Below, piece after piece: positions 10,676-25,394 of a stretch of 42,515 nucleotides of DNA. Origin of the DNA: Planctomycetota bacterium (GTDB lineage: Bacteria > Planctomycetota > Planctomycetia > Pirellulales > Pirellulaceae). The stretch covers positions 1 to 42,515 of the forward strand of contig JAJRWU010000106.1 of NCBI GenBank assembly GCA_024276655.1, written 5' to 3'. Position numbers and translations under genes: made by a program. The notes beneath the pieces were generated by a model. The model was not told where the DNA came from. It saw nothing but the letters and a program-made list of their open reading frames with translations, and searched no databases. Every line of letters begins with the position of its first letter. The first letter of the stretch is position 1.

Positions 10676-12856
10676 ATGAAGTGGTTGAACGTTAAGTTGA
10701 TATTCCAGCGGGAAGTGCGCGATCAACTGCGCGATCGCCGCACGATGTTCACTATTTTTGTGTTGCCGCTGTTGCTCTATCCGCTGATGGGCATGTCGAT
10801 GATGCAGGTCTCGCAGTTTCTGCGCGAGCACCCCACGAAAATTCTTGTTCTCGGCGCCGACCAACTCCCCGCGGAGCCGCGGTTGATTGAGGGAAATCGA
10901 TTTCTCAGCGAGTATTGTCTTAATCAAGACGACGCCCGCCTGCTGGAGCTTTCGCTGGGCGATGGCGAAGAGACGGGTTACTCCAAGGGAAAGCAGGCGT
11001 CGTTCGAACAACGCATGCAGGCGGTTATCGATCGAGGCGAATTCGACGCCGTGTTGGTCTTCCCGCCTGGGTTTGGTCGGCGTCTGGCGGATGCCGCGGC
11101 CGATTCCGGCGAAGTTCGCCAGCCGCAAGCCGATGCAATTCGACCAAGAATCTTTTACAACACCACCAAGGATAAATCTCGCATGGCGCACGACCGTATT
11201 TCGTTCGTGCTGCGCGCGTGGCGGGAACATATGGTGGCCGCGACACTGGCGCGAAACAAACTTCCCGCACTCACCACCCGACCCTTTCAGGTGGAATATC
11301 GAGACGTGGCGCCGGTGGCCAGCCGGCGAGCGGCGGTGTGGTCGAAGGTGTTGCCGTTTGTCGTTTTGATCTGGGCGCTAACGGGCGCCTTTTACCCCGC
11401 GATCGATCTGTGCGCCGGCGAAAAAGAGCGCGGCACCTTGGAAACGCTGTTGTGCAGCCCGGCCGGTCGTAACGAAATTGTGTTTGGGAAACTGGCCACC
11501 GTGATGGTGTTCAGCATGGCCACCGCGCTGCTGAACTTGCTCGTGATGAGCGGCACGGCCACGTTTGCCGTCCGCCAACTGGAGGCGTCGGCGGGCCAGC
11601 CGTTGGCGATTGGCTCGCCTCCGCTCTCGGCGATTTGGTTGCTGGTGCTGGCCTTGGTTCCGCTTTCGGCTTTGTTCAGCGCGTTGGCGTTGGGCATCGC
11701 CACGTTTGCTCGCAGCGCCAAAGAGGGGCAGTATTATCTGATGCCCCTGTTGATGATCACCCTGCCGCTGATGATGCTGCCGATGTTGCCGGCCGTCGAA
11801 CTCGACCTCGGCACCAGCCTGATTCCGGTTTCCGGCGTGATGCTCCTCCTGCGAGCCTTGATCGAGGGAGAATACGCGCGAGCCGCCCAATTCACACTGC
11901 CGGCGATGGGTGTCACGATTCTGTGTTGTCATTTCGCCATCCGCTGGGCGATCGATCAATTCAACAACGAAAGCGTGCTCTTTCGCGAAGGCGAGCGATG
12001 GCGGCTTGACTTGTGGATGAAGAACCTTATTTCGCAGCGAGAAGACACACCCACCTTCGCCGCCGCCATTATGTGTGGCGTGTTGATTCTCATGATGCGG
12101 TTTTTCTCCTCGATGATGGCTTCCACGCCTGGCCATTGGCAAGGTTTCGTGACCTCCACCTTGTTGGTGCAAATAGCGTTTATCGCCACGCCCGCGCTGT
12201 TGATGTCGATCATGCTGACCCGCCGTCCTCGCCGCACGTTGTTGCTGCAAATGCCGCACCTCGCCGCCATACCGGCCGCCATTGGGCTGGCGGTGGCGCT
12301 GCATCCCGCGGTGGTGAAGATGGGGGAATTCATCAGTTGGCTGTATCCGATGAGCGCGGAAACGACGCGTTTGCTGGAGCCGATTGGCGCCATGCTGAAC
12401 GAAGCGCCGCTTTCGGTGTTATTGCTGGCGATGGCGCTGGCGCCGGCCATTTGCGAGGAACTCGCCTTCCGAGGTTTTATCCTTTCGGGATTTCGCCACA
12501 TGGGGCATCGGCGGTCGGCCGTTTTGTTGAGCGCCGTTTTCTTTGGCGTCACGCATGGCATTTTGCAGCAGTCGATTTCCGCCACGGCGGTGGGCATGGT
12601 GCTGGGGTATTTGGCGGTGCAAACAGGTAGTTTGCTGCCTTGCATTCTGTTTCACTTCACGCACAACTCGCTGCTCCTGATCGCCGGCCGCCTGCCGAAT
12701 TCCGACTTGATTTACGATAAAACGACCGTCGTTCTGGGAACCTTGGCGGCGATCAGTATTTTGCTTTGGGTTCGCAGTTTGCCGAAGCATTATACCGATG
12801 AGGAAAAACGGCAGGGCGTGCTCGAACATCCGCAGCCCGCGCCAGTGATCAAATGA
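10676..12856 (+). CDS. NatB-like ABC permease fused to a CPBP intramembrane protease
   Basis: The 726-residue protein begins with an ABC-2 permease: one membrane segment near residue 25, a large extracytoplasmic loop (about 50-230), then several membrane segments with the typical EKERGTLETLLCSP motif near residue 250. The C-terminal 230 residues are a CPBP (CAAX protease/bacteriocin processing) domain. It has EELAFRG (EExxxR), FGVTHG (FxxxH) and HFTHNS as the three catalytic blocks, all intact. CPBP proteins are membrane-embedded metalloproteases. A fused protease could process what the exporter moves, or regulate the exporter; both are inference. I know this arrangement as recurrent in planctomycetes. 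Confidence 0.92.
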   Translation: MKWLNVKLIFQREVRDQLRDRRTMFTIFVLPLLLYPLMGMSMMQVSQFLREHPTKILVLGADQLPAEPRLIEGNRFLSEYCLNQDDARLLELSLGDGEETGYSKGKQASFEQRMQAVIDRGEFDAVLVFPPGFGRRLADAAADSGEVRQPQADAIRPRIFYNTTKDKSRMAHDRISFVLRAWREHMVAATLARNKLPALTTRPFQVEYRDVAPVASRRAAVWSKVLPFVVLIWALTGAFYPAIDLCAGEKERGTLETLLCSPAGRNEIVFGKLATVMVFSMATALLNLLVMSGTATFAVRQLEASAGQPLAIGSPPLSAIWLLVLALVPLSALFSALALGIATFARSAKEGQYYLMPLLMITLPLMMLPMLPAVELDLGTSLIPVSGVMLLLRALIEGEYARAAQFTLPAMGVTILCCHFAIRWAIDQFNNESVLFREGERWRLDLWMKNLISQREDTPTFAAAIMCGVLILMMRFFSSMMASTPGHWQGFVTSTLLVQIAFIATPALLMSIMLTRRPRRTLLLQMPHLAAIPAAIGLAVALHPAVVKMGEFISWLYPMSAETTRLLEPIGAMLNEAPLSVLLLAMALAPAICEELAFRGFILSGFRHMGHRRSAVLLSAVFFGVTHGILQQSISATAVGMVLGYLAVQTGSLLPCILFHFTHNSLLLIAGRLPNSDLIYDKTTVVLGTLAAISILLWVRSLPKHYTDEEKRQGVLEHPQPAPVIK

Positions 12857-14398: not shown

Positions 14399-15496
14399 AT
14401 GCCCATTACGGTAGTTTGTTCCGCGCCGGTTCGCTACGATTCGGAGCAAAAGAAGTACATCGCTTGTGGACGCAAGCTGAAGGTGGCCGATAAACTGGCC
14501 GGCCGACGCGTAAAATGCCCCGACTGCGGCGGCGCGGTCGAAGTTCCGTCGGGCAAAACGCCAACGGCCAATGCGTCATCATCGGCTACTGCCGACAAAA
14601 CGGACCAATCCACGGACGACGATTGGCTCACCTTGGAGGCGGACGACGCTATCGTTACTCCGCAGGAATCGCCGCCGAAGAAAAAATCATCCAAAGAGAA
14701 ACGCGCTAAGCAAACCTCGGCGGCGAAGAAGTTTCCACGATCGGGAGAACCCACCGAATCGACTTCGCAGTCTGAAGCTCCGCAGTCTGCAACATCGCCC
14801 ACGCGTGCGTCGCCGTTCGATTCGTCTCGCCAGAGCGCGCCTCCCAGTGAGATGAAGCCTTGCCCCGGTTGTGGGGTGGACATGCCATTGCATGGCGTGC
14901 TCTGCGAAAATTGCGGCTACCACAACCTGCTCGACCGGCGTTTCGAGAAACTAGGCGATACGGAAGCCGAAGTGCTGGTTACCGGTTTCCGCCGGTGGTT
15001 GGGAAAGCGGCTCACTTCGGGGGAGTCGGCCGATACGATGATTTCCCTGGCGCCCTGGTGCTTGGCCGCCTTTGTCTTGGCGGTTTCAATACTCTTCTTC
15101 TTGATGTTGCGTTGGCCGGGCTTGGCCATTGCCGTAACGCCGTGGCTGGTGCTCTTCGGTGGAGGCTGGCTGGGCTTTTGGCCGCGCAACCCCTGGGAAT
15201 GGGTGTTGGCCTGGGGACGAAAATTCGGCTGGCGCAATTGGACTCCCGCCTTGCCGAAAGTAAAAATGCTCGACCTCCGCAAGGCCGATATCAATGACGC
15301 CGCCCTCATCGCGAGAGACGATCTCGCCGGCTTCGGCGCCATCGACCTGGAGGGAACGCCCATCACCGATGCCGGGCTGGCGCACTTGATCGAATATCGC
15401 AACCTGGGTTTTATCATTCTCAAAAAAACAAAAGTTAGCGAAGACGGCCTCTATCAAACCGAACAACGCATGCCGAACAGTTGGTTTTGGTATTAA
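14399..15496 (+). CDS. Zinc-ribbon membrane protein with a short leucine-rich C-terminus
   Basis: The 365-residue protein opens with a planctomycete zinc-ribbon signature ([17 protein letters not shown] followed by KCPDCGG). A long Ser/Thr/Pro/Lys linker (about 50-150) and a second ribbon ([20 protein letters not shown]) follow. Two or three membrane segments lie around residues 220-265. The C-terminus ([19 protein letters not shown]) reads like two leucine-rich repeats. It may anchor a protein assembly at the membrane through the ribbons. It ends 40 bp before the asparagine-synthetase-like gene and may be the first gene of that operon. No enzymatic motif is visible. Confidence 0.78.
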
Positions 15497-15536: not shown

Positions 15537-16883
15537 ATGGCATTTGTCGCGCTGGTCGAACGCATGATCGACTTACTCGACCCCCAAGCGAATCTGCTCT
15601 TGAACGCTACGCTTGAACAGGCGACCGCGGCGGTGCGCAGCGGCGACGCGGCGAAAATCGCCAAGCTGGAAGGGCAGTTCGCCTTGCTCGCCAAGGATGG
15701 GCAAACCGTTCGCATGGCGCGCACGCTGGGTCGGCCGATGCGATATTTTCTCGCCAAGCAAGCGGCCGGGCCGTGTCTGATCGTGGCCGAACGCATTGAT
15801 GAAATCAAACAGCAACTCGTCGAGATGGGGCTGGCCGATCAGTTCCATCCTTCCTACACCCGCATGGTTCCGGCGCATCATCTGCTGGAGTTGCGTTTGA
15901 TCGGCTGCCCCGACCCACAACCAACCTGCACGCGTTTTGTCGCCCCGCAACGTAACCGGTTGCCGGCCGATATCAACAGCATCGGCCAAGCATACATCGG
16001 CGCCGTGGCGCATGTTTGCCAAGCCTGGCTCGATCAACTCGACGAACAGGAACCGATCGGCGTGCTGTTTTCCGGCGGCGTCGATAGCGGAGCGCTGTTT
16101 CTGATTCTCCACCATTTGATTCTGCAAAGAGGGCAGTCGCCGGCAAGGCTGAAGGCCTTCACGCTCTCGGTCGGCGGCCAGCCGTCTGATTCCCAACAGG
16201 CCGATTCCCAACAGGCCCGGGAGTTCCTCCGCGCGCTCGACTTGGAGCTTTTCCTCGAAGTGGTGCAAGTCGGCGGCGATGCGATCAACCTGCGCGAAAC
16301 AGTTCGCACGATTGAAGATTATAAACCGCTTGATGTGCAAGCCGCCGCCATGGGTTTGACGCTGTGCCGCGCGATTCGGCGGCGGTATCCCGATTGGCGT
16401 GTGTTGGTCGATGGCGATGGCGGCGACGAAAACTTAAAAGACTACCCGATTCACGAGAACCCCGAACTGACCATTCGCAGCGTGCTCAACAATTTGATGC
16501 TGTACCAGGAAGGTTGGGGCGTCGACGCGGTCAAACATTCGCTGACCTACAGCGGCGGCCAAAGCCGGGGGCACGTCCGCACGTACGCGCCGGCTCGCAG
16601 TTGTGGATTCAGCGGCTTCAGTCCTTTCGCCGAACCTTCGGTGGTGGGTGTCGCGGAGGGTATTCCTTTCATCGAACTCACCGATTGGGATGAACAACGG
16701 CTGTACGCGTTGAAAGGTCAAATCGTGGCGGCGGGCGTGGAGGCGTTGACCGGCATGAAGATGCCCATCTTCGAAAAGCGGCGTTTTCAACGCGGCGCCG
16801 TCGATGCCGAACGCTTCACAAATCTCTTCCCCGCGAATGAAGAGGCCGTGTATCGCCGCATGTTTTCCGAGCTTCATGGCTGA
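15537..16883 (+). CDS. Asparagine-synthetase-like ATP-dependent amide-forming enzyme without glutaminase nucleophile
   Basis: The 448-residue protein has the synthetase half of the AsnB family. The PP-loop VLFSGGVDSGALF (SGGVDS at 179-184) binds ATP and VLVDGDGGDE (about 290-298) corresponds to the conserved second block. The N-terminus starts MAFVALV, not the MCG of Ntn glutaminases. Only the second half of that domain remains (LEGQFALLAKDG, then RPMRYFL and VAERIDE). It should therefore activate a carboxylate with ATP and use ammonia or another amine, as beta-lactam synthetase does. A 15-bp tandem duplication near 16187-16216 gives DSQQADSQQA. It overlaps the next gene by 8 bp. Confidence 0.82.
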   Translation: MAFVALVERMIDLLDPQANLLLNATLEQATAAVRSGDAAKIAKLEGQFALLAKDGQTVRMARTLGRPMRYFLAKQAAGPCLIVAERIDEIKQQLVEMGLADQFHPSYTRMVPAHHLLELRLIGCPDPQPTCTRFVAPQRNRLPADINSIGQAYIGAVAHVCQAWLDQLDEQEPIGVLFSGGVDSGALFLILHHLILQRGQSPARLKAFTLSVGGQPSDSQQADSQQAREFLRALDLELFLEVVQVGGDAINLRETVRTIEDYKPLDVQAAAMGLTLCRAIRRRYPDWRVLVDGDGGDENLKDYPIHENPELTIRSVLNNLMLYQEGWGVDAVKHSLTYSGGQSRGHVRTYAPARSCGFSGFSPFAEPSVVGVAEGIPFIELTDWDEQRLYALKGQIVAAGVEALTGMKMPIFEKRRFQRGAVDAERFTNLFPANEEAVYRRMFSELHG

Positions 16884-17838
16884 CCGTCTTTTGATTCCCA
16901 CACGCGAAATTTTGGCCGCTCGCGGCGGCAAGTCGGCCGTTGATACGGCGCGGCCGTACGCCTTTCACGTGGAGCCGGAATGCGCCGCCGACGGAAGCGT
17001 CGTGCAAGTCGCGACGATCTTCCTCACCAATCGCGAATGCCCGCTGCGTTGTTTGATGTGCGACCTCTGGCGCAACACGACCGACGAAACAGTTCCCGTT
17101 GGCGCCGTGGCGGGGCAAATCGAATATGCGTTGGAGCATCTCGGCCCCGCCCAGCAGATCAAACTTTATAACAGCGGCAACTTTTCCGACCCAGCCGCCA
17201 TCCCTCCCGCCGACTACGAAAAAATCGCCCAGCATGTGGCGCCGTTTCAGCGGGTGATTGTGGAAAACCATCCAAAGTTTTGTGGCCAGCGGCTGTTGCA
17301 GTTTCAAAAGTTACTCGCCCCGCCGCTGGAAGTGGCGCTCGGTTTGGAAACCATCGATCCTCGCGTGCTGCCGCGTTTGAACAAGGCCATGACGCTCGAC
17401 GACTTCGCCGCTTCGGCGGCCTTCCTTCGGCGGAGCAACATCGGCGTGCGGGCCTTCATTCTGCTGCGTCCTCCCTACCAAACGGAAGAAGAGGGTGTTG
17501 CCTGGGCGTTGCGGTCAATTGCCTGGGCGTTTGAAGTCGGCGTGCAGTGTTGCGCGGTCATTCCCACGCGCGCCGGCAACGGCGTGATGGAGCAACTGGC
17601 AACGCAGGGAAATTACGCACCGCCCACGCTGGCGTCGCTGGAAAAAGTGTTGGAGGAAGGTTTGAACCCCGCGCGCGGACGGGTGTTTGTCGACCTCTGG
17701 GACGTCGAACGATTCTTTGCCTGCACTCTTTGCGGTCCGCGCCGCGCACAACGGCTCGCCGAGATGAATCTGCGGCAGGTCGTGCTGCCACGCGTCGCGA
17801 CCGACTGCCCCTGCCAAAGCGAAACGAGCGGCGCATGA
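16876..17838 (+). CDS. Radical SAM enzyme, possibly related to the RaSEA/TIGR01210 type
   Basis: ATG 16876 lies inside the end of the preceding gene (ATGGCTGA overlap), giving 320 residues and coupled translation. The cluster motif NRECPLRCLMCDLW carries C55, C59 and C62 (CxxxCxxC). Strands IKLYNSGNFSDP and RVIVENHPKF resemble the family that includes the archaeosine-forming radical SAM enzyme. I hold that resemblance as moderate, since it is from memory of the pattern. The C-terminus has FFACTLCG (C283, C286) and ATDCPC (C311, C313), enough for an additional Fe-S or zinc site. The next gene overlaps by 4 bp. The substrate is unknown. Confidence 0.85.
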   Translation: MADRLLIPTREILAARGGKSAVDTARPYAFHVEPECAADGSVVQVATIFLTNRECPLRCLMCDLWRNTTDETVPVGAVAGQIEYALEHLGPAQQIKLYNSGNFSDPAAIPPADYEKIAQHVAPFQRVIVENHPKFCGQRLLQFQKLLAPPLEVALGLETIDPRVLPRLNKAMTLDDFAASAAFLRRSNIGVRAFILLRPPYQTEEEGVAWALRSIAWAFEVGVQCCAVIPTRAGNGVMEQLATQGNYAPPTLASLEKVLEEGLNPARGRVFVDLWDVERFFACTLCGPRRAQRLAEMNLRQVVLPRVATDCPCQSETSGA

Positions 17839-19346
17839 AGACGGTCAATTGCCAGATACTCGTACTTGGCGGCGGCTTCGCCGGTTCGCTGCTGGCCATG
17901 ATTTTGAAACGCATCGGTTTTGACGCCGCGTTGTTCGACCGCGCCCAACATCCTCGCTTCGCGATTGGCGAATCGTCGACGCCCACCGCCAACATGGTGC
18001 TGGCCGCGCTCGCCCAGCGGTACGACTTACCGCGTCTGCTGCCGCTGGCGAAATTCGGCTCGTGGCAAGAAACGTATCCCCACCTAACCTGCGGCTGCAA
18101 ACGCGGCTTCAGTTACTTCGCCCATCAAAAAAACCGGCCTTTCGCCGCGGCGCCCAATCACGGTAATGCGCTGTTGGTCGCGGCCAGCAGCAGTCGAGAG
18201 CAAGCTGACACGCAGTGGTTGCGGGCCGATGTTGACGCCTTCCTGTTCGACGAAGCCGCCGCCTTGGGCGTACAAACCGAAGAGCAGGTCGAACTCAACG
18301 CCGCGCATTACGACGGCGCATGGCGGCTCGGCGGCGTGCAAAATGGAGAGCCGCTCGAAGTTCGCGCCCGGTTCGTGGTCGACGCCACGGGTCCCGCCGC
18401 TTGGCTGCCGCGAATGCTGGGAGTGGCCAAAGCAAACGTTCGTTTCCGAACCAACTCATGGGCGATCTATTCGCACTTCGACCACCTGCCGCCTTGGTCT
18501 GACATGCTCGACGCCGCTTCGCCCTCCACCCGCGCCGATCACCCCTTCCCCTGCGACGAAGCAGCCCAGCATCACTTGCTCGAAACCAGTTGGTTGTGGC
18601 GACTGCGTTTCCTCGACGGACGCACCAGCGCCGGCCTTGTATTTGATGGTCGTCGCCGCCAACCACCCAACGCTGCATCGGCCCAACAGTTGTGGCGGCG
18701 GACGCTCGCCGATTACCCCGCGCTGCAAGAGCAGTTTACCGAAGCCGCGTTGGCGGCCTCCCCGGGAAAACTCATTCTCAGCCCGCGTTTGCAGCGGCGT
18801 TTGCAGCAGGCCGTCGGCCCCGGCTGGGCGGCGTTGCCGCACACCGCTGGTTTTATCGATCCGCTGCACAGCACGGGTATCGCACATTCGCTCTGCGGCA
18901 TCGAACGGTTGGCGTCTATTCTGGAACAGCACTTTAGTAAAGATTCGCTGCCCTCGACGCTTTGCGGCTACCAGCGGGCGTTGTTCAGCGAATTGGCGAT
19001 GATCGACCATTTGGCGAGTAGCTGTTACGATGCATTGACTGATTTCAGACTGTTCGCCGCTTGCACGATGCTTTACTTCGCCGCCGCCACTTATTACGAA
19101 CAGACTCGCACCGCAGGAGGGCCAGTTCGCCAGTTCCTTTGTGCCGACGAACTGCCGTTGCGGCGGGCGGTCGCCAGGATTTCGCACGAAGCGAAGCGAC
19201 TTTCCGGCCAACATCGTGTGACGACGAACATGGCGGCGCGGTTTGAACAGTCTGTCGCGGAGGCAATTCGGCCCTATAATCGAGTGGGGTTATGCGACCC
19301 CGGCGCGATGAATAGGTATCGTCACACCATCGCCCCGCAGGAGTGA
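17835..19346 (+). CDS. FAD-dependent oxidoreductase of the flavin halogenase/monooxygenase type
   Basis: ATG 17835 overlaps the radical SAM stop (ATGA), giving 503 residues; the frame is open further upstream only by chance. The dinucleotide site is ILVLGGGFAGSLLA (GGGFAG at 12-17). FAIGESSTPTANMVL and VVDATGPAAWLP match the second and third blocks of flavin-dependent halogenases. The family's GWxWxIP motif appears only as SWLWRLRF (about residue 252). A lysine in CGCKRGFSYF lies where the halogenase lysine is expected. HTAGFIDPLHSTGIAHS fits the late FAD-contact region. It could be a halogenase, a hydroxylase or a reductase. Confidence 0.8.
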   Translation: MKTVNCQILVLGGGFAGSLLAMILKRIGFDAALFDRAQHPRFAIGESSTPTANMVLAALAQRYDLPRLLPLAKFGSWQETYPHLTCGCKRGFSYFAHQKNRPFAAAPNHGNALLVAASSSREQADTQWLRADVDAFLFDEAAALGVQTEEQVELNAAHYDGAWRLGGVQNGEPLEVRARFVVDATGPAAWLPRMLGVAKANVRFRTNSWAIYSHFDHLPPWSDMLDAASPSTRADHPFPCDEAAQHHLLETSWLWRLRFLDGRTSAGLVFDGRRRQPPNAASAQQLWRRTLADYPALQEQFTEAALAASPGKLILSPRLQRRLQQAVGPGWAALPHTAGFIDPLHSTGIAHSLCGIERLASILEQHFSKDSLPSTLCGYQRALFSELAMIDHLASSCYDALTDFRLFAACTMLYFAAATYYEQTRTAGGPVRQFLCADELPLRRAVARISHEAKRLSGQHRVTTNMAARFEQSVAEAIRPYNRVGLCDPGAMNRYRHTIAPQE

Positions 19347-19349
19347 CCG

Positions 19350-19450
19350 AGGAACAGTCCTGAATTTACATGCCGAATTAAAAGCCCGGCATTTTCAAAA
19401 TGCCGGGCTTTTCTGAACTACTACCGGTAACTTATTTCAGGACTATTCCT
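19350..19450. repeat. Complete copy of the GGAACAGTCC palindromic element
   Basis: The outer ends, AGGAACAGTCCTGAA (19350-19364) and TTCAGGACTATTCCT (19436-19450), are reverse complements with one mismatch. The centre is a perfect hairpin AAAAGCCCGGCATTTT-C-AAAATGCCGGGCTTTT (about 19380-19412). Between ends and hairpin lie ATTTACATGCCGAATT on the left and CTGAACTACTACCGGTAACTT on the right; each half recurs in other copies in this window. This copy defines the element as about 101 bp. It starts 4 bp after the halogenase-like gene and so can terminate that operon. Confidence 0.8.
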
Positions 19451-19467: not shown

Positions 19468-21171
19468 GTGTCGAACAATCGAGAACCGCGTCGTGAAAGC
19501 GGCTCTTTCTACACGCCGCCCCGACTGGCCCGGCACGTGGTGGAAAACGCCGTGGCTATCTGGCGGCGTTTTCACCCCGACCACTCGTTGCACGATGCCC
19601 GCGTTTTGGATCCCGCCTGTGGCGATGGTGTGTTCTTACTGGAAGCGCTGCGTTTGAAGCTCCCCGGCATCTACGGCGTGGACGTCAATCCGCAAGCGGT
19701 GGCGGCGGCCCGGCGTGCTGTCTTGCCGTCGTTCCGTGCGGCCCACTCGGCGGCGGGAAAACAGCCAGCGCGGGAAACATCGGCGCGATTGCTCGATGCG
19801 AGCATCCTCACGGGCAACGCCCTTCTGGGCGCCGATTTCTCGCCTCCGCAACTGACGGAGCGCCCCTATGATTGGCGGCAATTCGACTGGCGCCAAGCCT
19901 TTCCCAAAGTGTTTACCGGCGCCCCCGCCCAAAGCGGTTTCGACATGCTGCTGGGCAACCCGCCGTACGTCGGCATGCGGCGTCTTTCTCAAGGACCGTT
20001 GGCGGCGGCGAAGCCGTATTGGTCGACGCGTTACCAGACAGCCCGCGGCGCGTACGATCTTTACGTGCTGTTCCTGGAGCAGGCGAATCGCTTGCTGCGG
20101 CCGGGCGGCGTGGGCGCGATGATCACGCCCAACAAAATCGGTTCGCTGCTCTACGCCCAAGCCTGCCGCGACATGTTGCTGCGGGAAACCTGTTTGGAAA
20201 GAATCGATGACTGCTCCAACTTGCAACTGTTCCCCGGCGTGAACGTGTACCCTTATGTATTGTATTGGCGCAAGGCGGCGCCCAGCCAGCAGCAGCATGT
20301 TGGCGTGTATGAGGCTGCGGCCGTTGGGCGGTTGCCGACCCGCCCGCGATGCCGCGTGTTGCAAGCAACCTTGCGGGCCAAAGGCGTGTTTGCACTCCAT
20401 GCGGAGACCGATTTGGAAGTCAGGACGCCCGTCGCGCCGTTGGCCGAACTGGCCACGCTGCGCTGTGGCGTGACAGGTTTTCAGGCCGCGAAAATCGGTG
20501 CTGCCTTGCGTGAGGCGTCTGAAGAAAACGGTTCCTCGCCCGACGAGAACGTCGATAAAAACGCCCAGCAGGAAGGCTGGGATTTCGTCGTCAGCGGTTC
20601 GATCAATCGGTATCACATCCGCCGGGGAAATGTGCGATTCCAGAAGCGACGTTACGCGCTGCCTCGGTTGCCATTCGATGCGCCCACGGTCAGTCCAGGC
20701 AAGCGAAAACTTTTCGATGACCCCAAAATCGTGTGCTCAGGCTTGACCAAACGCTTGCAGGCGGCTTGGTGCGAATCGCCCTTGGCGTTGGGCGTGCAAG
20801 TGTTTGCCGCGGCGAATTTGCAAGTCGACGCGTTTTATCTTTTAGGTTTGCTCAATTCCAAATTGCTAACGTTCCTTTTCCGGCAACGGCATGCTTCGAA
20901 ACAGTTGGCGGGCGGGTATGCGTCGGTCAACAAGGGGCAACTCGGCGAATTGCCGATTCGGCGCATCGACTTCAAAAACAATCTGGAAAAACAATGGCGC
21001 CAAACCATTATCGATTCCGCCCAGAAACTCCATCGGCGCGGCGGCGATAATATTCCCGGCGCCGCCAGCCAACATCTCGAACAGCAACTCGACGCGGCCG
21101 TCTATCGGCTTTATCAAATCACGGCCGACGAAATCGCCCGCATCGAAACCATGTGCCAGGAGTTGGTCTAG
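19468..21171 (+). CDS. N6-adenine DNA methyltransferase (TaqI/Eco57I-like), apparently solitary
   Basis: The 567-residue protein starts at GTG 19468 behind GGAAAGGG, and the N-terminus RESGSFYTPPRLARHVVENA is typical of this class. SAM-binding motif I is VLDPACGDGVFLLEA (about 47-60) and catalytic motif IV is MLLGNPPYVGM (NPPY at 164-167). A C-terminal target-recognition domain follows, with the usual LLGLLNSKLLTFLF and NKGQLGELPIRRI stretches. I see no PD-(D/E)xK nuclease motif and no restriction gene next to it. It is therefore probably an orphan methyltransferase or the remnant of a type IIG enzyme. The recognition site is not predictable. Confidence 0.9.
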   Translation: MSNNREPRRESGSFYTPPRLARHVVENAVAIWRRFHPDHSLHDARVLDPACGDGVFLLEALRLKLPGIYGVDVNPQAVAAARRAVLPSFRAAHSAAGKQPARETSARLLDASILTGNALLGADFSPPQLTERPYDWRQFDWRQAFPKVFTGAPAQSGFDMLLGNPPYVGMRRLSQGPLAAAKPYWSTRYQTARGAYDLYVLFLEQANRLLRPGGVGAMITPNKIGSLLYAQACRDMLLRETCLERIDDCSNLQLFPGVNVYPYVLYWRKAAPSQQQHVGVYEAAAVGRLPTRPRCRVLQATLRAKGVFALHAETDLEVRTPVAPLAELATLRCGVTGFQAAKIGAALREASEENGSSPDENVDKNAQQEGWDFVVSGSINRYHIRRGNVRFQKRRYALPRLPFDAPTVSPGKRKLFDDPKIVCSGLTKRLQAAWCESPLALGVQVFAAANLQVDAFYLLGLLNSKLLTFLFRQRHASKQLAGGYASVNKGQLGELPIRRIDFKNNLEKQWRQTIIDSAQKLHRRGGDNIPGAASQHLEQQLDAAVYRLYQITADEIARIETMCQELV

Positions 21172-21278
21172 CGGCCGATCGCGAACGGTGCTAGAGTTCG
21201 CGGCTGCTAATCTTGGCTATTTCTCTATTCTTGAAGGCTCGGCCGGAGGTCGAGCGGCGTTTACCCAAGGAGGGACTC

Positions 21279-22277
21279 GTGAAAAAGTCAGCTGGTCTTG
21301 TGTTGCTTGCGCTCGTTTCAGCCGCAGGTTGGTTCTTCTTCCAGAATTTCGAGATCAAGGGCCTCGGCAACCTGCAAGTCGGCGCTCGCGAGAAAATTCC
21401 GAGCGAAACCGAGCCGCAAGGCGCCCTGGCCAGCAACGCCAATGGCGTGATTCGCGTGGCCTCATTCAACATTCAAGTTTTTGGACAAAGCAAACTCAAC
21501 AAGCCGGTCGTGATGGACCGGCTCGCGCAAATAGTTCGTCAGTTCGATATTGTGGCTGTCCAGGAAGTGCGGTCGAAGAATCAAGACGTTCTGCCGAGAT
21601 TTATCGATCTGATCAACGCCGGCGGGCGCCGCTACGACTACGTGATCAGCGAGCGGCTGGGGCGAACGGTCAGCAAGGAACAATACGCGTACATCTTCGA
21701 CACGCAAAAGGTTGAAGTCGATCGCAACCAGTGTTATGTCGTGGCCGATCCCAATGATGTCATCCATCGCGAACCGTATGTGGGTTGGTTTCGCGTGCGA
21801 GGACCGCCGCCAGAACAAGCCTGGACGTTCTCGCTGGTCAACATTCACACCGACCCCGACGAAGTTAAAGATGAAATCAAGTACCTCGACGCGATCTATC
21901 GTGAAGTGCGCGACGACGGCCGCAACGAAGACGACGTGATCATTCTCGGCGATTTCAACATCGACGACCGAGGCCTCATTCCACAGGTGCAAAGCGCGGG
22001 CCTCACTCCCACGATTTCGGGCGTGGCCACAAATACACGGGGCACGAAACTCTACGACAATTTGGTTTTTTCCACCAAGGCGACCAGCGAGTTCACCGGC
22101 CGCTCAGGCGTTTATGACTTCCTGCGGGAATTCAATCTACCGCTGCCCGAAGCGATTGAAATTTCGGATCACCTTCCCGTATGGGCCGAATTCAGCGTCT
22201 TTGAAGGCGGGCAACCCGGCAGAGTTGCAACTGTGCCCCCGACGCCCAGCGTTGATAAGGCGAGCGCCAGAAAATAA
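21279..22277 (+). CDS. Membrane-anchored endonuclease/exonuclease/phosphatase (EEP) family protein
   Basis: The GTG at 21279 follows AAGGAGGG, an excellent ribosome binding site, which decides the start and gives 332 residues. The N-terminus is a membrane anchor (KKSAGLVLLALVSAAGWFFF). The DNase-I-like fold shows every core motif: RVASFNIQVFG (Asn), VAVQEVRS (catalytic Glu), LVNIHTDPDE, VIILGDFNIDD (Asp/Asn) and ISDHLPVWAEF (His). Residue spacing fits DNase-I-like nucleases, but the fold also hosts phosphodiesterases. The C-terminal 25 residues are a Pro/Ser-rich tail. It probably acts outside the cytoplasm. It begins 107 bp after the methyltransferase. Confidence 0.9.
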   Translation: MKKSAGLVLLALVSAAGWFFFQNFEIKGLGNLQVGAREKIPSETEPQGALASNANGVIRVASFNIQVFGQSKLNKPVVMDRLAQIVRQFDIVAVQEVRSKNQDVLPRFIDLINAGGRRYDYVISERLGRTVSKEQYAYIFDTQKVEVDRNQCYVVADPNDVIHREPYVGWFRVRGPPPEQAWTFSLVNIHTDPDEVKDEIKYLDAIYREVRDDGRNEDDVIILGDFNIDDRGLIPQVQSAGLTPTISGVATNTRGTKLYDNLVFSTKATSEFTGRSGVYDFLREFNLPLPEAIEISDHLPVWAEFSVFEGGQPGRVATVPPTPSVDKASARK

Positions 22278-23561: not shown

Positions 23562-25394
23562 CTATTTCACGAGTTCGGCCAAGGTGACAGTCCTACCGCC
23601 GGCGCCGCTTGGCGTCGCGCCGCCCCATGACGCCACAGCTCGGCGCGTCGTGATGGTTCCCATCACGTAACGCACGGTCGTTTTCTCACCCGGCTCATCG
23701 GGATCATCCACTTCCATTTCGACCACCCTGTCGAGGTGCACGGAAACGAAGTCCGCGATACGGATCTTACCCGTTAATTCGCCGTTAAGGTCGCGGCTTT
23801 CGGGAATCGTCTCGACGATAGGCATCACGATGTCCCGGGCAGGATCGTAATACGGCAGGTCGAGCCGTTGTTGTAGCGCTTCTTCAAAACTGCCTCCGTT
23901 GGTCCCGCCATTGAAGACACGAGCCTCGTCGCCAACCTTCAGGCTGACTGGATCGTCATCGCCATTGAGTATGCTCGCCACGTCGTTTTCGGTAGCGCCC
24001 TCGCCATAGGAATCGATTTCGAGCGTGAGGTGTGCCGAAAGATGTTCGCCTTCTCCGAAGACGGCGACCACGACCTCATCTCCAACTTTAAAGTATTCGC
24101 CGTTCTCGGGAGACGACGGACCGTATTCAGCACACTGAGTGCTGAAATCTTCATCGTCTTCGTCGTGATCTTCGTCATCATCTTCGTCGTGATCTTCGTC
24201 GTCATCTTCGTCGTCATCTTCGTCGTCATCTTCGTCGTCATCTTCGTCGTCATCTTCGTCGTCATCTTCGTCGTCATCTTCGTCATCATCTTCGTCGTCA
24301 TCTTCGTCGTCATCTTCGTCATCATCCTCGTCGTCATCCTCGTCGTCATCCTCGTCGTCATCCTCGTCGTGATCTTCGTCGTGATCTTCGTCATCATCTT
24401 CGTCATCATCTTCGTCGTCATCTTCGTCGTCATCTTCGTCATCATCTTCGTCATCATCTTCGTCATCATCTTCGTCGTCATCTTCGTCATCATCTTCGTC
24501 GTCATCTTCGTCATCATCTTCGTCATCATCTTCGTCATCATCTTCGTCGTCATCTTCGTCGTCATCTTCGTCGTCATCTTCGTCGTCATCTTCGTCGTCA
24601 TCTTCGTCATCATCTTCGTCATCATCTTCGTCGTCATCTTCGTCGTCATCTTCGTCGTCATCTTCGTCGTCATCTTCGTCGTCATCTTCGTCGTCATCTT
24701 CGTCGTCATCTTCGTCATCATCTTCGTCATCATCTTCGTCATCATCTTCGTCGTCATCTTCGTCATCATCGTCGTCGTCTTCGTCGTTGCATAAATCACT
24801 CAAGTTGCTGTCGGGGTCGATCGGACCGAAGCCCGGTGCTCGCAGCGCCAGAGGCATCCCCTCTGCTGCGGAACTGGGAGAAATGGTAGCCGTCGCGGCG
24901 GTCTTAAGCGGCACCTCTTTCACGCCGAAGATTTTCATGAAATACGTGCCCACGCTATCAGTGTTTTTGCCGTCGCGGCGAACAAGCACTTGCACGGCAT
25001 TCGGAGCGCCTTCACTTGCCGCGAACGTTTCGGACGCAGGATCCCATTTACCAAACACGATGTCTTCGGGCACCAGCACACTTCCCTTGTTTGGCAAATT
25101 CTCATTGGCGAACCCAGCCGCCCATGCCTGGGCGTTGGTTCTGGTCGCCTCCGTATTCACATTTCCGATACGCATCGCCGCCGCCAACGCCGCCGCATCG
25201 GCGGCGCTCTGCATGCGCGACTTGGATGCGTGCATGTAGCCGTAGTCGACCGTCATGGCGGTGAGCATACAGAGCATGACCACCATCAGGAGTGACGCCA
25301 TTAAGGCGGATCCGCGTCGCTGTCGCCGTTTTAATCGATGCGTGCTCATGGGTTGATTTTCTTCGTGGGTTGAGATGGCGCCGGGCTGAAACAT
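23562..25394 (-). CDS. TadG-like pilus assembly protein with a 213-residue Asp/Glu tract
   Basis: The 610-residue protein starts at ATG 25394 with GGAG 11 nt upstream, or at ATG 25349 (MSTHRLKRR). Residues about 25-75 are a TadG/TadE-type N-terminus: basic RRQRRGSALMASL, one membrane segment, then DYGYMHASKSRMQSAADAAA, typical of Flp-pilus-associated proteins. Residues 204-416 are almost only Asp and Glu in the four-residue rhythm DDED with four His. A folded C-terminal domain of about 190 residues follows (VGDEVVVAVFGEGEHLSAHL). The tract should be disordered and bind divalent cations. The upstream TadE-like gene is 54 bp away, so the two are probably cotranscribed. Confidence 0.85.
   Translation of the reverse strand: MFQPGAISTHEENQPMSTHRLKRRQRRGSALMASLLMVVMLCMLTAMTVDYGYMHASKSRMQSAADAAALAAAMRIGNVNTEATRTNAQAWAAGFANENLPNKGSVLVPEDIVFGKWDPASETFAASEGAPNAVQVLVRRDGKNTDSVGTYFMKIFGVKEVPLKTAATATISPSSAAEGMPLALRAPGFGPIDPDSNLSDLCNDEDDDDDDEDDDEDDDEDDDEDDDEDDDEDDDEDDDEDDDEDDDEDDDEDDDEDDDEDDDEDDDEDDDEDDDEDDDEDDDEDDDEDDDEDDDEDDDEDDDEDDDEDDDEDDDEDDDEDDDEDDDEDDDEDDDEDHDEDHDEDDDEDDDEDDDEDDDEDDDEDDDEDDDEDDDEDDDEDDDEDDDEDDDEDDDEDDDEDHDEDDDEDHDEDDEDFSTQCAEYGPSSPENGEYFKVGDEVVVAVFGEGEHLSAHLTLEIDSYGEGATENDVASILNGDDDPVSLKVGDEARVFNGGTNGGSFEEALQQRLDLPYYDPARDIVMPIVETIPESRDLNGELTGKIRIADFVSVHLDRVVEMEVDDPDEPGEKTTVRYVMGTITTRRAVASWGGATPSGAGGRTVTLAELVK
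24147..24785 (-). repeat. 12-bp tandem repeat (minisatellite) encoding the acidic tract
   Basis: About 53 units of a 12-bp motif, read on the coding strand as GATGACGACGAA with GAT/GAC alternation, fill 639 bp. Units differ mainly at third codon positions and in a few CAC (His) codons. This pattern means selection for D/E is stronger than DNA homogenisation. The other frames remain open as (MTKMTTK)n and, on the plus strand, as (VIFVVIF)n; neither is taken as a gene. Confidence 0.92.

Follow-up and report, generated by a model that had tools for sequence, protein, structure and literature searches.

A stretch of 42,515 nucleotides from a planctomycete of the family Pirellulaceae (assembly GCA_024276655.1, contig JAJRWU010000106.1), in the following called the window, carries three overlapping genes for an asparagine-synthetase-type amide ligase (P0001), a radical S-adenosylmethionine (SAM) enzyme (P0002) and a flavin-dependent enzyme of the halogenase type (P0003; Table 1). 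We hold with high confidence that this trio constitutes one dedicated pathway, and it very probably makes a single compound or modification. A check of the open reading frames (ORFs) recovered all three genes where an earlier interpretation of the letters alone (the sequence-only reading) had placed them, together with the overlaps of 8 and 4 base pairs (bp) that it had given: P0001 and P0002 share 8 bp, and P0002 and P0003 share ATGA.

Table 1. Coordinates of the three genes, of their diagnostic motifs and of the downstream hairpin in the window (aa, amino acids).
Feature	Position	Strand	Remarks
P0001, asparagine-synthetase-type ligase without glutaminase active site	15537..16883	+	448 aa; PF00733 5e-14 (Pfam scan), model, 71-sequence alignment
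P0001, pyrophosphate loop SGGVDS, residues 179-184	16071..16088	+	aligned with AsnB loop
P0001, Lys414	16776..16778	+	invariant 36/36; aligned with E. coli AsnB Lys449 (MAFFT)
P0002, RaSEA-like radical SAM enzyme	16876..17838	+	320 aa; TIGR01210 2e-32, model pLDDT 95, pTM 0.92
P0002, CxxxCxxC cluster motif (Cys55, Cys59, Cys62)	17038..17061	+	invariant 52/52
P0003, PltM-like flavin-dependent halogenase/monooxygenase-type enzyme	17835..19346	+	503 aa; PltM 6e-47 by sequence, family of 67
P0003, Lys89	18099..18101	+	aligned with Lys of PltM CGIK; invariant 40/40
P0003, WxWxLxF, where halogenases have WxWxI(P)	18591..18611	+	W253, W255 invariant 40/40; L257, F259 at least 90%
P0003, halogenase tunnel motif Fx.Px.Sx.G	18852..18878	+	P343, S346, G348 invariant 40/40; F340 nearly
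Perfect 16-bp inverted repeat/hairpin with T run, possible terminator	19380..19412	+	3' of P0003

Three known enzyme types and their departures

The AlphaFold model of P0001 (pLDDT 86, pTM 0.88) matches human ASNS, beta-lactam synthetase and AsnB with Z values of about 23-24 over about 350-390 residues, and Foldseek returned the same matches. With AsnB, beta-lactam synthetase and carbapenam synthetase the protein shares the fold over nearly its whole length (Z 19-24), the pyrophosphate loop and the C-terminal lysine. It differs from synthetases of the AsnB type in a 57-residue deletion, a shortened N-terminus and an aspartate (Asp294) at the position of AsnB Glu348; TIGR01536 scores it at 50 against a cut-off of 267. 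The term "nucleophile-less", which the sequence-only reading had applied to P0001, proves apt. In a MAFFT alignment Cys1, Arg49, Asn74 and Glu76 of E. coli AsnB are all without a counterpart, three of these four glutaminase positions falling in the deletion and Cys1 lying beyond the N-terminus of P0001, and cysteine is missing from the first 12 residues in 70 of the 71 family members. We interpret the N-terminal domain as a remnant which, to judge from the alignment, is unable to hydrolyse glutamine by the usual mechanism. The ATP half appears intact: whereas the glutaminase features of AsnB are absent, the SGGxDS loop and the C-terminal lysine are present, with S179, G181, D183 and S184 of the loop invariant in all 36 aligned members and G180 nearly so, and with Lys414 paired with Lys449, a catalytic residue of AsnB. 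Cys124 (15906-15908), in a GCPDP motif between the two domains, is likewise invariant in all 36 aligned members.

P0002 belongs to the radical SAM enzymes, as is evident from its CxxxCxxC motif and from a model that matches radical SAM structures at Z values up to 17.3; its match to PF04055 is weak (1.7e-5, under the cut-off). P0002 is a sister of archaeal RaSEA (TIGR01210), the nearest named family, which all 52 aligned members of the P0002 family match; 19 of them also match MnmL/YtqA. Foldseek ranks Elp3 best for the model, and a second structure comparison places queuine lyase first (Z 17.3), with biotin synthase (16.4) tied at a distance of less than one Z unit. The cluster motif is shared with RaSEA, but P0002 stays under the family cut-off (112.4 bits against a curated 212.15), is bacterial and adjoins an AsnB-type ligase rather than ArcS. 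Relatives of ArcS or ArcTGT are not encoded by the trio genes, the rest of the genome not having been searched for ArcS-like genes. P0002 would be a bacterial representative of the RaSEA branch, in a role other than archaeosine formation; P0001 would be an amide ligase that lacks a glutaminase.

P0003 matches Trp_halogenase (PF04820) at 3e-13 and, among the solved halogenases, tetracycline 7-halogenase at 9e-39 in addition to PltM. With both of these it shares the GxGxxG motif (G12, G14, G17), the conserved lysine and Fx.Px.Sx.G, which according to PMC12871659 and PMC7336383 marks the tunnel from the flavin to the halogenation site. The most frequent variants of this tunnel motif among the 67 family sequences, a few of which deviate, are AGFVDPLLSTGF and AGFIDPLHSTGI; GESSTP is conserved in the family as well. 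The difference from PltM and tetracycline 7-halogenase lies in WxWxLxF, with which the P0003 family departs from the halogenase motif WxWxI(P): leucine occupies the isoleucine position in at least 90% of 40 members, the commonest variants are WIWVLQF and WIWVLRF, and no proline follows the leucine in the variants listed. WxWxI is described in PMC12871659 as a motif regarded as preventing monooxygenation. The activity of P0003 may be either halogenation or hydroxylation. At E <= 1e-5 the 40 aligned relatives match QhpG (40), CmlS (40), GoxB (38) and LodB (27), with P0003 itself well under the cut-offs of the QhpG and CmlS models.

Joint inheritance and gene order

Strong matches to P0001 (E < 1e-99), P0002 and P0003 (E < 1e-47) occur in 25, 26 and 26 of 60 relatives' genomes, and these are nearly the same genomes. 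P0001 is found in 25 of the 26 P0002-positive relatives and in no other genome, four further genomes yielding only weak, generic matches; in the lone P0002-positive relative without it (G001) the locus is cut by a contig end. The P0003-positive set differs from that of P0002 by one genome missing (G040) and one extra (G010), while weaker relatives of P0003 are nearly universal (58 of 60 at 0.001). Hypergeometric p values for this co-occurrence are 5e-16, 2e-13 and 1e-14, uncorrected for phylogeny. A second sample, of 294 Planctomycetota, overlaps with the first by a few genomes; in it the best 5 to 7 candidates per genome were scored, with thresholds of 1e-60, 1e-40 and 1e-60. Here P0001, P0002 and P0003 share one set of 13 genomes (p of about 7e-23 for P0001 with P0002, again uncorrected), and P0003 has four additional, weaker matches, of which G323 holds the best.

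The distribution reaches well beyond the planctomycetes, to distant bacteria of soil and water. Sixty-four loci were recovered through exact peptide patterns of P0002, which do not amount to an exhaustive census. By their record titles they comprise metagenome-assembled genomes (MAGs) of Planctomycetota, Acidobacteria, Armatimonadetes, Bacteroidales, Verrucomicrobia, Abditibacteriaceae and others, of which MAG names such as Akkermansia, Kuenenia, Bacteroidales and Actinomycetota may be mislabelled or contaminated. Isolates among them include Acidobacterium sp. S8, Granulicella sp. L46, Silvibacterium bohemicum S15, Aquisphaera insulae JC669 and Rhodopirellula europaea 6C. Where a locus showed P0002 without P0001, a search of the whole genome found P0001 in 13 of 14 cases, and 14 of the 19 genomes without P0003 at the locus encode it elsewhere.

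The order P0001-P0002-P0003 on one strand is kept in 54 of the 55 loci with all three genes, the exception being an inverted P0003 (L095). These loci come from a synteny set of 124, left from 128 loci with matches after four duplicates were dropped, in which gaps were computed from starts extrapolated from alignments. The junction of P0002 and P0003 is no wider than 30 bp in 52 of 54 loci (median -7) and that of P0001 and P0002 in 42 of 54 (median 20, usually a short gap). Conservation of both order and overlaps in other genomes had been named as a check of the sequence-only reading; the order is conserved, whereas the overlaps vary.

Physical linkage is frequently lost. P0001 and P0002 are neighbours in 11 of the 13 trio-positive Planctomycetota of the larger sample, P0002 and P0003 in only five, P0003 being sited elsewhere in the genome in the other eight. 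In single-contig genomes (G107, G128, G238, G295) the distance to P0003 is about 0.24 to 2.1 Mb; G146 and G273 carry each gene on a different contig. In two single-contig relatives, P0001 is separated from P0002 and P0003 by about 1.2 Mb (G012) and 0.6 Mb (G036). Since co-occurrence is maintained in genomes where the genes are unlinked, operon structure alone cannot explain it, and it is difficult to account for otherwise than by a shared function. The single pathway proposed in the sequence-only reading is therefore supported by co-occurrence in other genomes, by gene order and by co-occurrence without linkage, and the objection that the trio might be confined to this genome falls away.

Several exceptions weigh against a strictly obligate trio. 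P0001 was not found in one MAG (G359) of the 14 whole genomes searched, and P0003 not in five of the 19, namely four MAGs (one armatimonad, two Bacteroidales, one acidobacterial) and the isolate Aquisphaera insulae. G040 possesses P0001 and P0002 while a close P0003 is absent; conversely, G010 and G323 lack these two genes yet hold a P0003 that is close or fairly close. The core thus consists of P0001 and P0002, to which P0003 adds a frequent yet dispensable step: its lack in five of 19 checked genomes means that a third step is not obligatory. Overall, the trio is nearly strictly co-inherited in Planctomycetota, Acidobacteriota and, by titles, other under-studied phyla, and is rarely half-lost in the genomes sampled. 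A set of genes that is sometimes scattered and nevertheless inherited together points to a compound or modification in use by these bacteria. Cultured carriers exist, with all three genes in Silvibacterium bohemicum and Granulicella sp. L46 and with an unlinked P0001 in Rhodopirellula europaea, so that the question of the pathway is open to testing.

A possible reaction sequence and its substrate

No description of this combination of enzymes was found in the openly licensed PMC papers searched. We regard the trio as a new pathway assembled from known enzyme types, each of which departs from its named relatives. The chemistry that we propose, namely ligation, radical C-N cleavage and then flavin oxidation or halogenation, seems to us about evenly balanced between right and wrong. 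P0001 would consume ATP in turning a carboxylate into an acyl adenylate, which it would join to an amine; since the enzyme has no glutaminase active site, this amine would not come from glutamine. P0002 would act on the amide-linked product and, by analogy with RaSEA, whose reaction is a C-N cleavage as follows from its substrate and product, would most likely cut the C-N bond of the added amine, with the nitrogen staying behind. P0003, with flavin adenine dinucleotide (FAD), would hydroxylate or halogenate an electron-rich ring. What the analysis shows is the enzyme families, the conservation of catalytic residues, the near-obligate co-occurrence and the order of the genes; reaction order, C-N cleavage, substrate and product are inferred. 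Besides the exceptions to co-occurrence, two observations count against the scheme: P0002 scores 112 against 212 bits for RaSEA and several radical SAM chemistries tie for the best match to its fold, so that C-N cleavage is only an analogy, and the P0003 of the window is basic (isoelectric point, pI, 8.65), unlike its family (median 6.3).

The model for this scheme is the archaeosine pathway, in which, according to PMC11298593, RaSEA turns preQ0-Lys into archaeosine once ArcS has attached lysine; the same paper reports that several ArcS enzymes do not accept ammonia, asparagine or glutamine. Our scheme shares with it the logic of attaching an amino acid which a radical enzyme then strips (PMC11298593), and differs in a ligase from another superfamily and in the presence of a third, flavin enzyme. 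An extension of this logic outside transfer RNA (tRNA), which we offer as very unlikely speculation, is an amidation in which an amino acid is borrowed and then cut off: P0001 would have lost glutamine hydrolysis because its nitrogen donor would be a whole amino acid, and P0002 would strip the carbon skeleton of this donor by radical C-N cleavage, as though the logic of ArcS and RaSEA had been re-invented with an AsnB-type ligase. The finished group, after oxidation or halogenation by P0003, would serve a cofactor of a new kind that works outside the cytoplasm with FG-GAP/ASPIC proteins.

As the substrate, tRNA is less probable than a small molecule or a residue in an exported protein. A pathway for modification of tRNA or another RNA, as a bacterial counterpart of archaeosine formation, would agree with the fact that the nearest named families of P0002 are tRNA enzymes (RaSEA and, in part, MnmL/YtqA), with the Foldseek matches to Elp3, with a weak similarity of P0001 to TilS (0.006) and with the basic P0003 of the window. 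However, both P0001 and P0002 belong to acidic families (median pI 5.8 and 6.0, respectively) and a Pfam scan revealed no RNA-binding domain in the trio, both of which count against a tRNA substrate. In addition, we know of no enzyme of the PltM/halogenase type from tRNA, and a patchy distribution (13 of 294 genomes) is, to our knowledge, unusual for a tRNA modification. We consider this explanation quite unlikely.

Pathways for ribosomally synthesised and post-translationally modified peptides (RiPPs) use asparagine-synthetase-like, radical SAM and halogenase enzymes, which would fit a cluster in which P0001 forms a macrolactam in the manner of a lasso cyclase and P0003 halogenates a peptidyl tryptophan, both on a ribosomal precursor peptide. 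The ammosamide cluster holds both a putative asparagine synthetase and a halogenase (PMC12715798). To some degree, the result of a search for a conserved precursor gene counts against such a cluster: short ORFs (20-110 aa) lying no more than 1.2 kb from a trio gene were clustered, and among the 25 largest clusters no conserved precursor peptide was recognised, these clusters looking like fragments or shadows of trio or ASPIC genes. The trio genes are moreover unlinked in many genomes, and we judge a RiPP-like origin highly improbable.

ASPIC proteins and other neighbours of the trio

In the most interesting of the rival explanations, exported FG-GAP/ASPIC(UnbV) proteins would carry a modification that the trio installs or supplies, such as a redox group derived from a side chain; the ligase, the radical enzyme and P0003, as a QhpG/GoxB-like flavoprotein, would then be maturases. 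We regard this explanation as unlikely. It draws on gene context, on the matches of P0003 relatives to QhpG, GoxB and LodB, and on a tryptophan column in the ASPIC proteins. Within the sequence covered at each locus, FG-GAP/ASPIC(UnbV) genes are present in 31 of the 36 loci grouped as acidobacterial, where the usual partners of the trio are FG-GAP/ASPIC proteins, an RnfD-like membrane protein and a TPR-FG-GAP-ASPIC protein, and Aquisphaera insulae has a similar ASPIC set on the same strand as P0001 and P0002. ASPIC genes occur in five of the other 27 genome-contig loci, including one (L023) which is titled Acidobacteria yet counted here. Against the explanation, a home-made ASPIC profile found no ASPIC gene in 62 planctomycete trio-gene loci, although Pfam recognised one (8.6e-6, over the cut-off) in L100, beside the trio of G014.

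At the level of whole genomes, at least five ASPIC genes are found, among the matches listed, in all 26 trio-positive relatives as opposed to 10 of 34 trio-negative ones (Fisher p 4e-9), and within the family in 24 of 24 as opposed to 5 of 13 (p 3e-5), both p values ignoring phylogeny. ASPIC frames of about 940-1120 aa, again among the matches listed, all come from trio-positive genomes, and the two that were scanned (L178, L174) consist of TPR, FG-GAP and ASPIC parts. However, ASPIC genes are abundant in some trio-negative genomes, with 52 in G005. Since many genomes have ASPIC genes but no trio, the link runs in one direction only and may be a matter of lifestyle.

A column of the ASPIC alignment (position 182) holds tryptophan in 82% of 17 long and 83% of six short proteins from trio-positive genomes, compared with 29% of 21 proteins from trio-negative genomes; the regions were chosen by the trio status of the genome, and 16 of the 20 trio-positive ones by frame length, so that these values are not unbiased frequencies. 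This tryptophan is not conserved in the acidobacterial ASPIC proteins of 600 aa, half of which have asparagine at that position. Several columns differ between the groups, and none holds in both phyla, for which reason a shared modification site was rejected. The long proteins (about 1000 aa) of L171-L186, all from trio-positive genomes, share a stretch GDG...N at aligned positions 510-517 of the ASPIC domain, the aspartate of which is present in 88% of 17 long proteins and in none of 21 from trio-negative genomes. A supposedly long ASPIC protein from a trio-negative genome (L197) shows no match to TPR and resembles a shorter protein whose reading frame has been extended spuriously at the upstream end.

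Other candidate partners were likewise put aside. The RnfD-like membrane protein is matched in only three of the 60 relatives, which speaks against an obligate partner. A FAAL-ACP-aminotransferase fusion beside P0001 in G012 and G028 matches 58 of the 60 relatives at full length or in part and is thus not specific; a protein of this kind at L118:11012-14587 fuses an acyl-AMP ligase, a carrier domain and a class I/II aminotransferase-type part. DUF1501 genes (21) and PSCyt2/PSD1 genes (15) occur in the 62 planctomycete trio-gene loci (L088-L126, L128-L150), compared with none and two in 40 ASPIC-centred control loci, counts that permit no conclusion because the trio loci themselves had served to build the profiles and the choice of control loci was not random.

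Within the window, the unit is bordered upstream by an ORF for a zinc-ribbon membrane protein (14399-15496), which, as the sequence-only reading had it, ends 40 bp 5' of P0001. Its relatives are absent from the other compared loci, with the same-genus locus ending before this point, and it was not retained as a fourth member. The terminator-like repeat which the same reading had placed 4 bp after P0003 exists as an inverted repeat with arms 77% complementary and begins at 19350, three bases past the stop codon. The perfect hairpin further downstream (Table 1) is not among the sites of a consensus terminator scan, whose site count is no higher than in shuffled sequences.

Beyond these repeats follow genes for an Eco57I-type methylase and an Exo_endo_phos protein (19468-22277, forward strand), a pair which, among the loci compared, adjoins the trio only in the same-genus loci L021/L127. 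A 610-aa ORF on the reverse strand (23562-25394) has as its middle part a very long acidic repeat of DED/DDD units, and a single ORF at 10676-12856 (forward strand) combines ABC-2 permease domains with a CAAX-protease (Rce1-like) domain.

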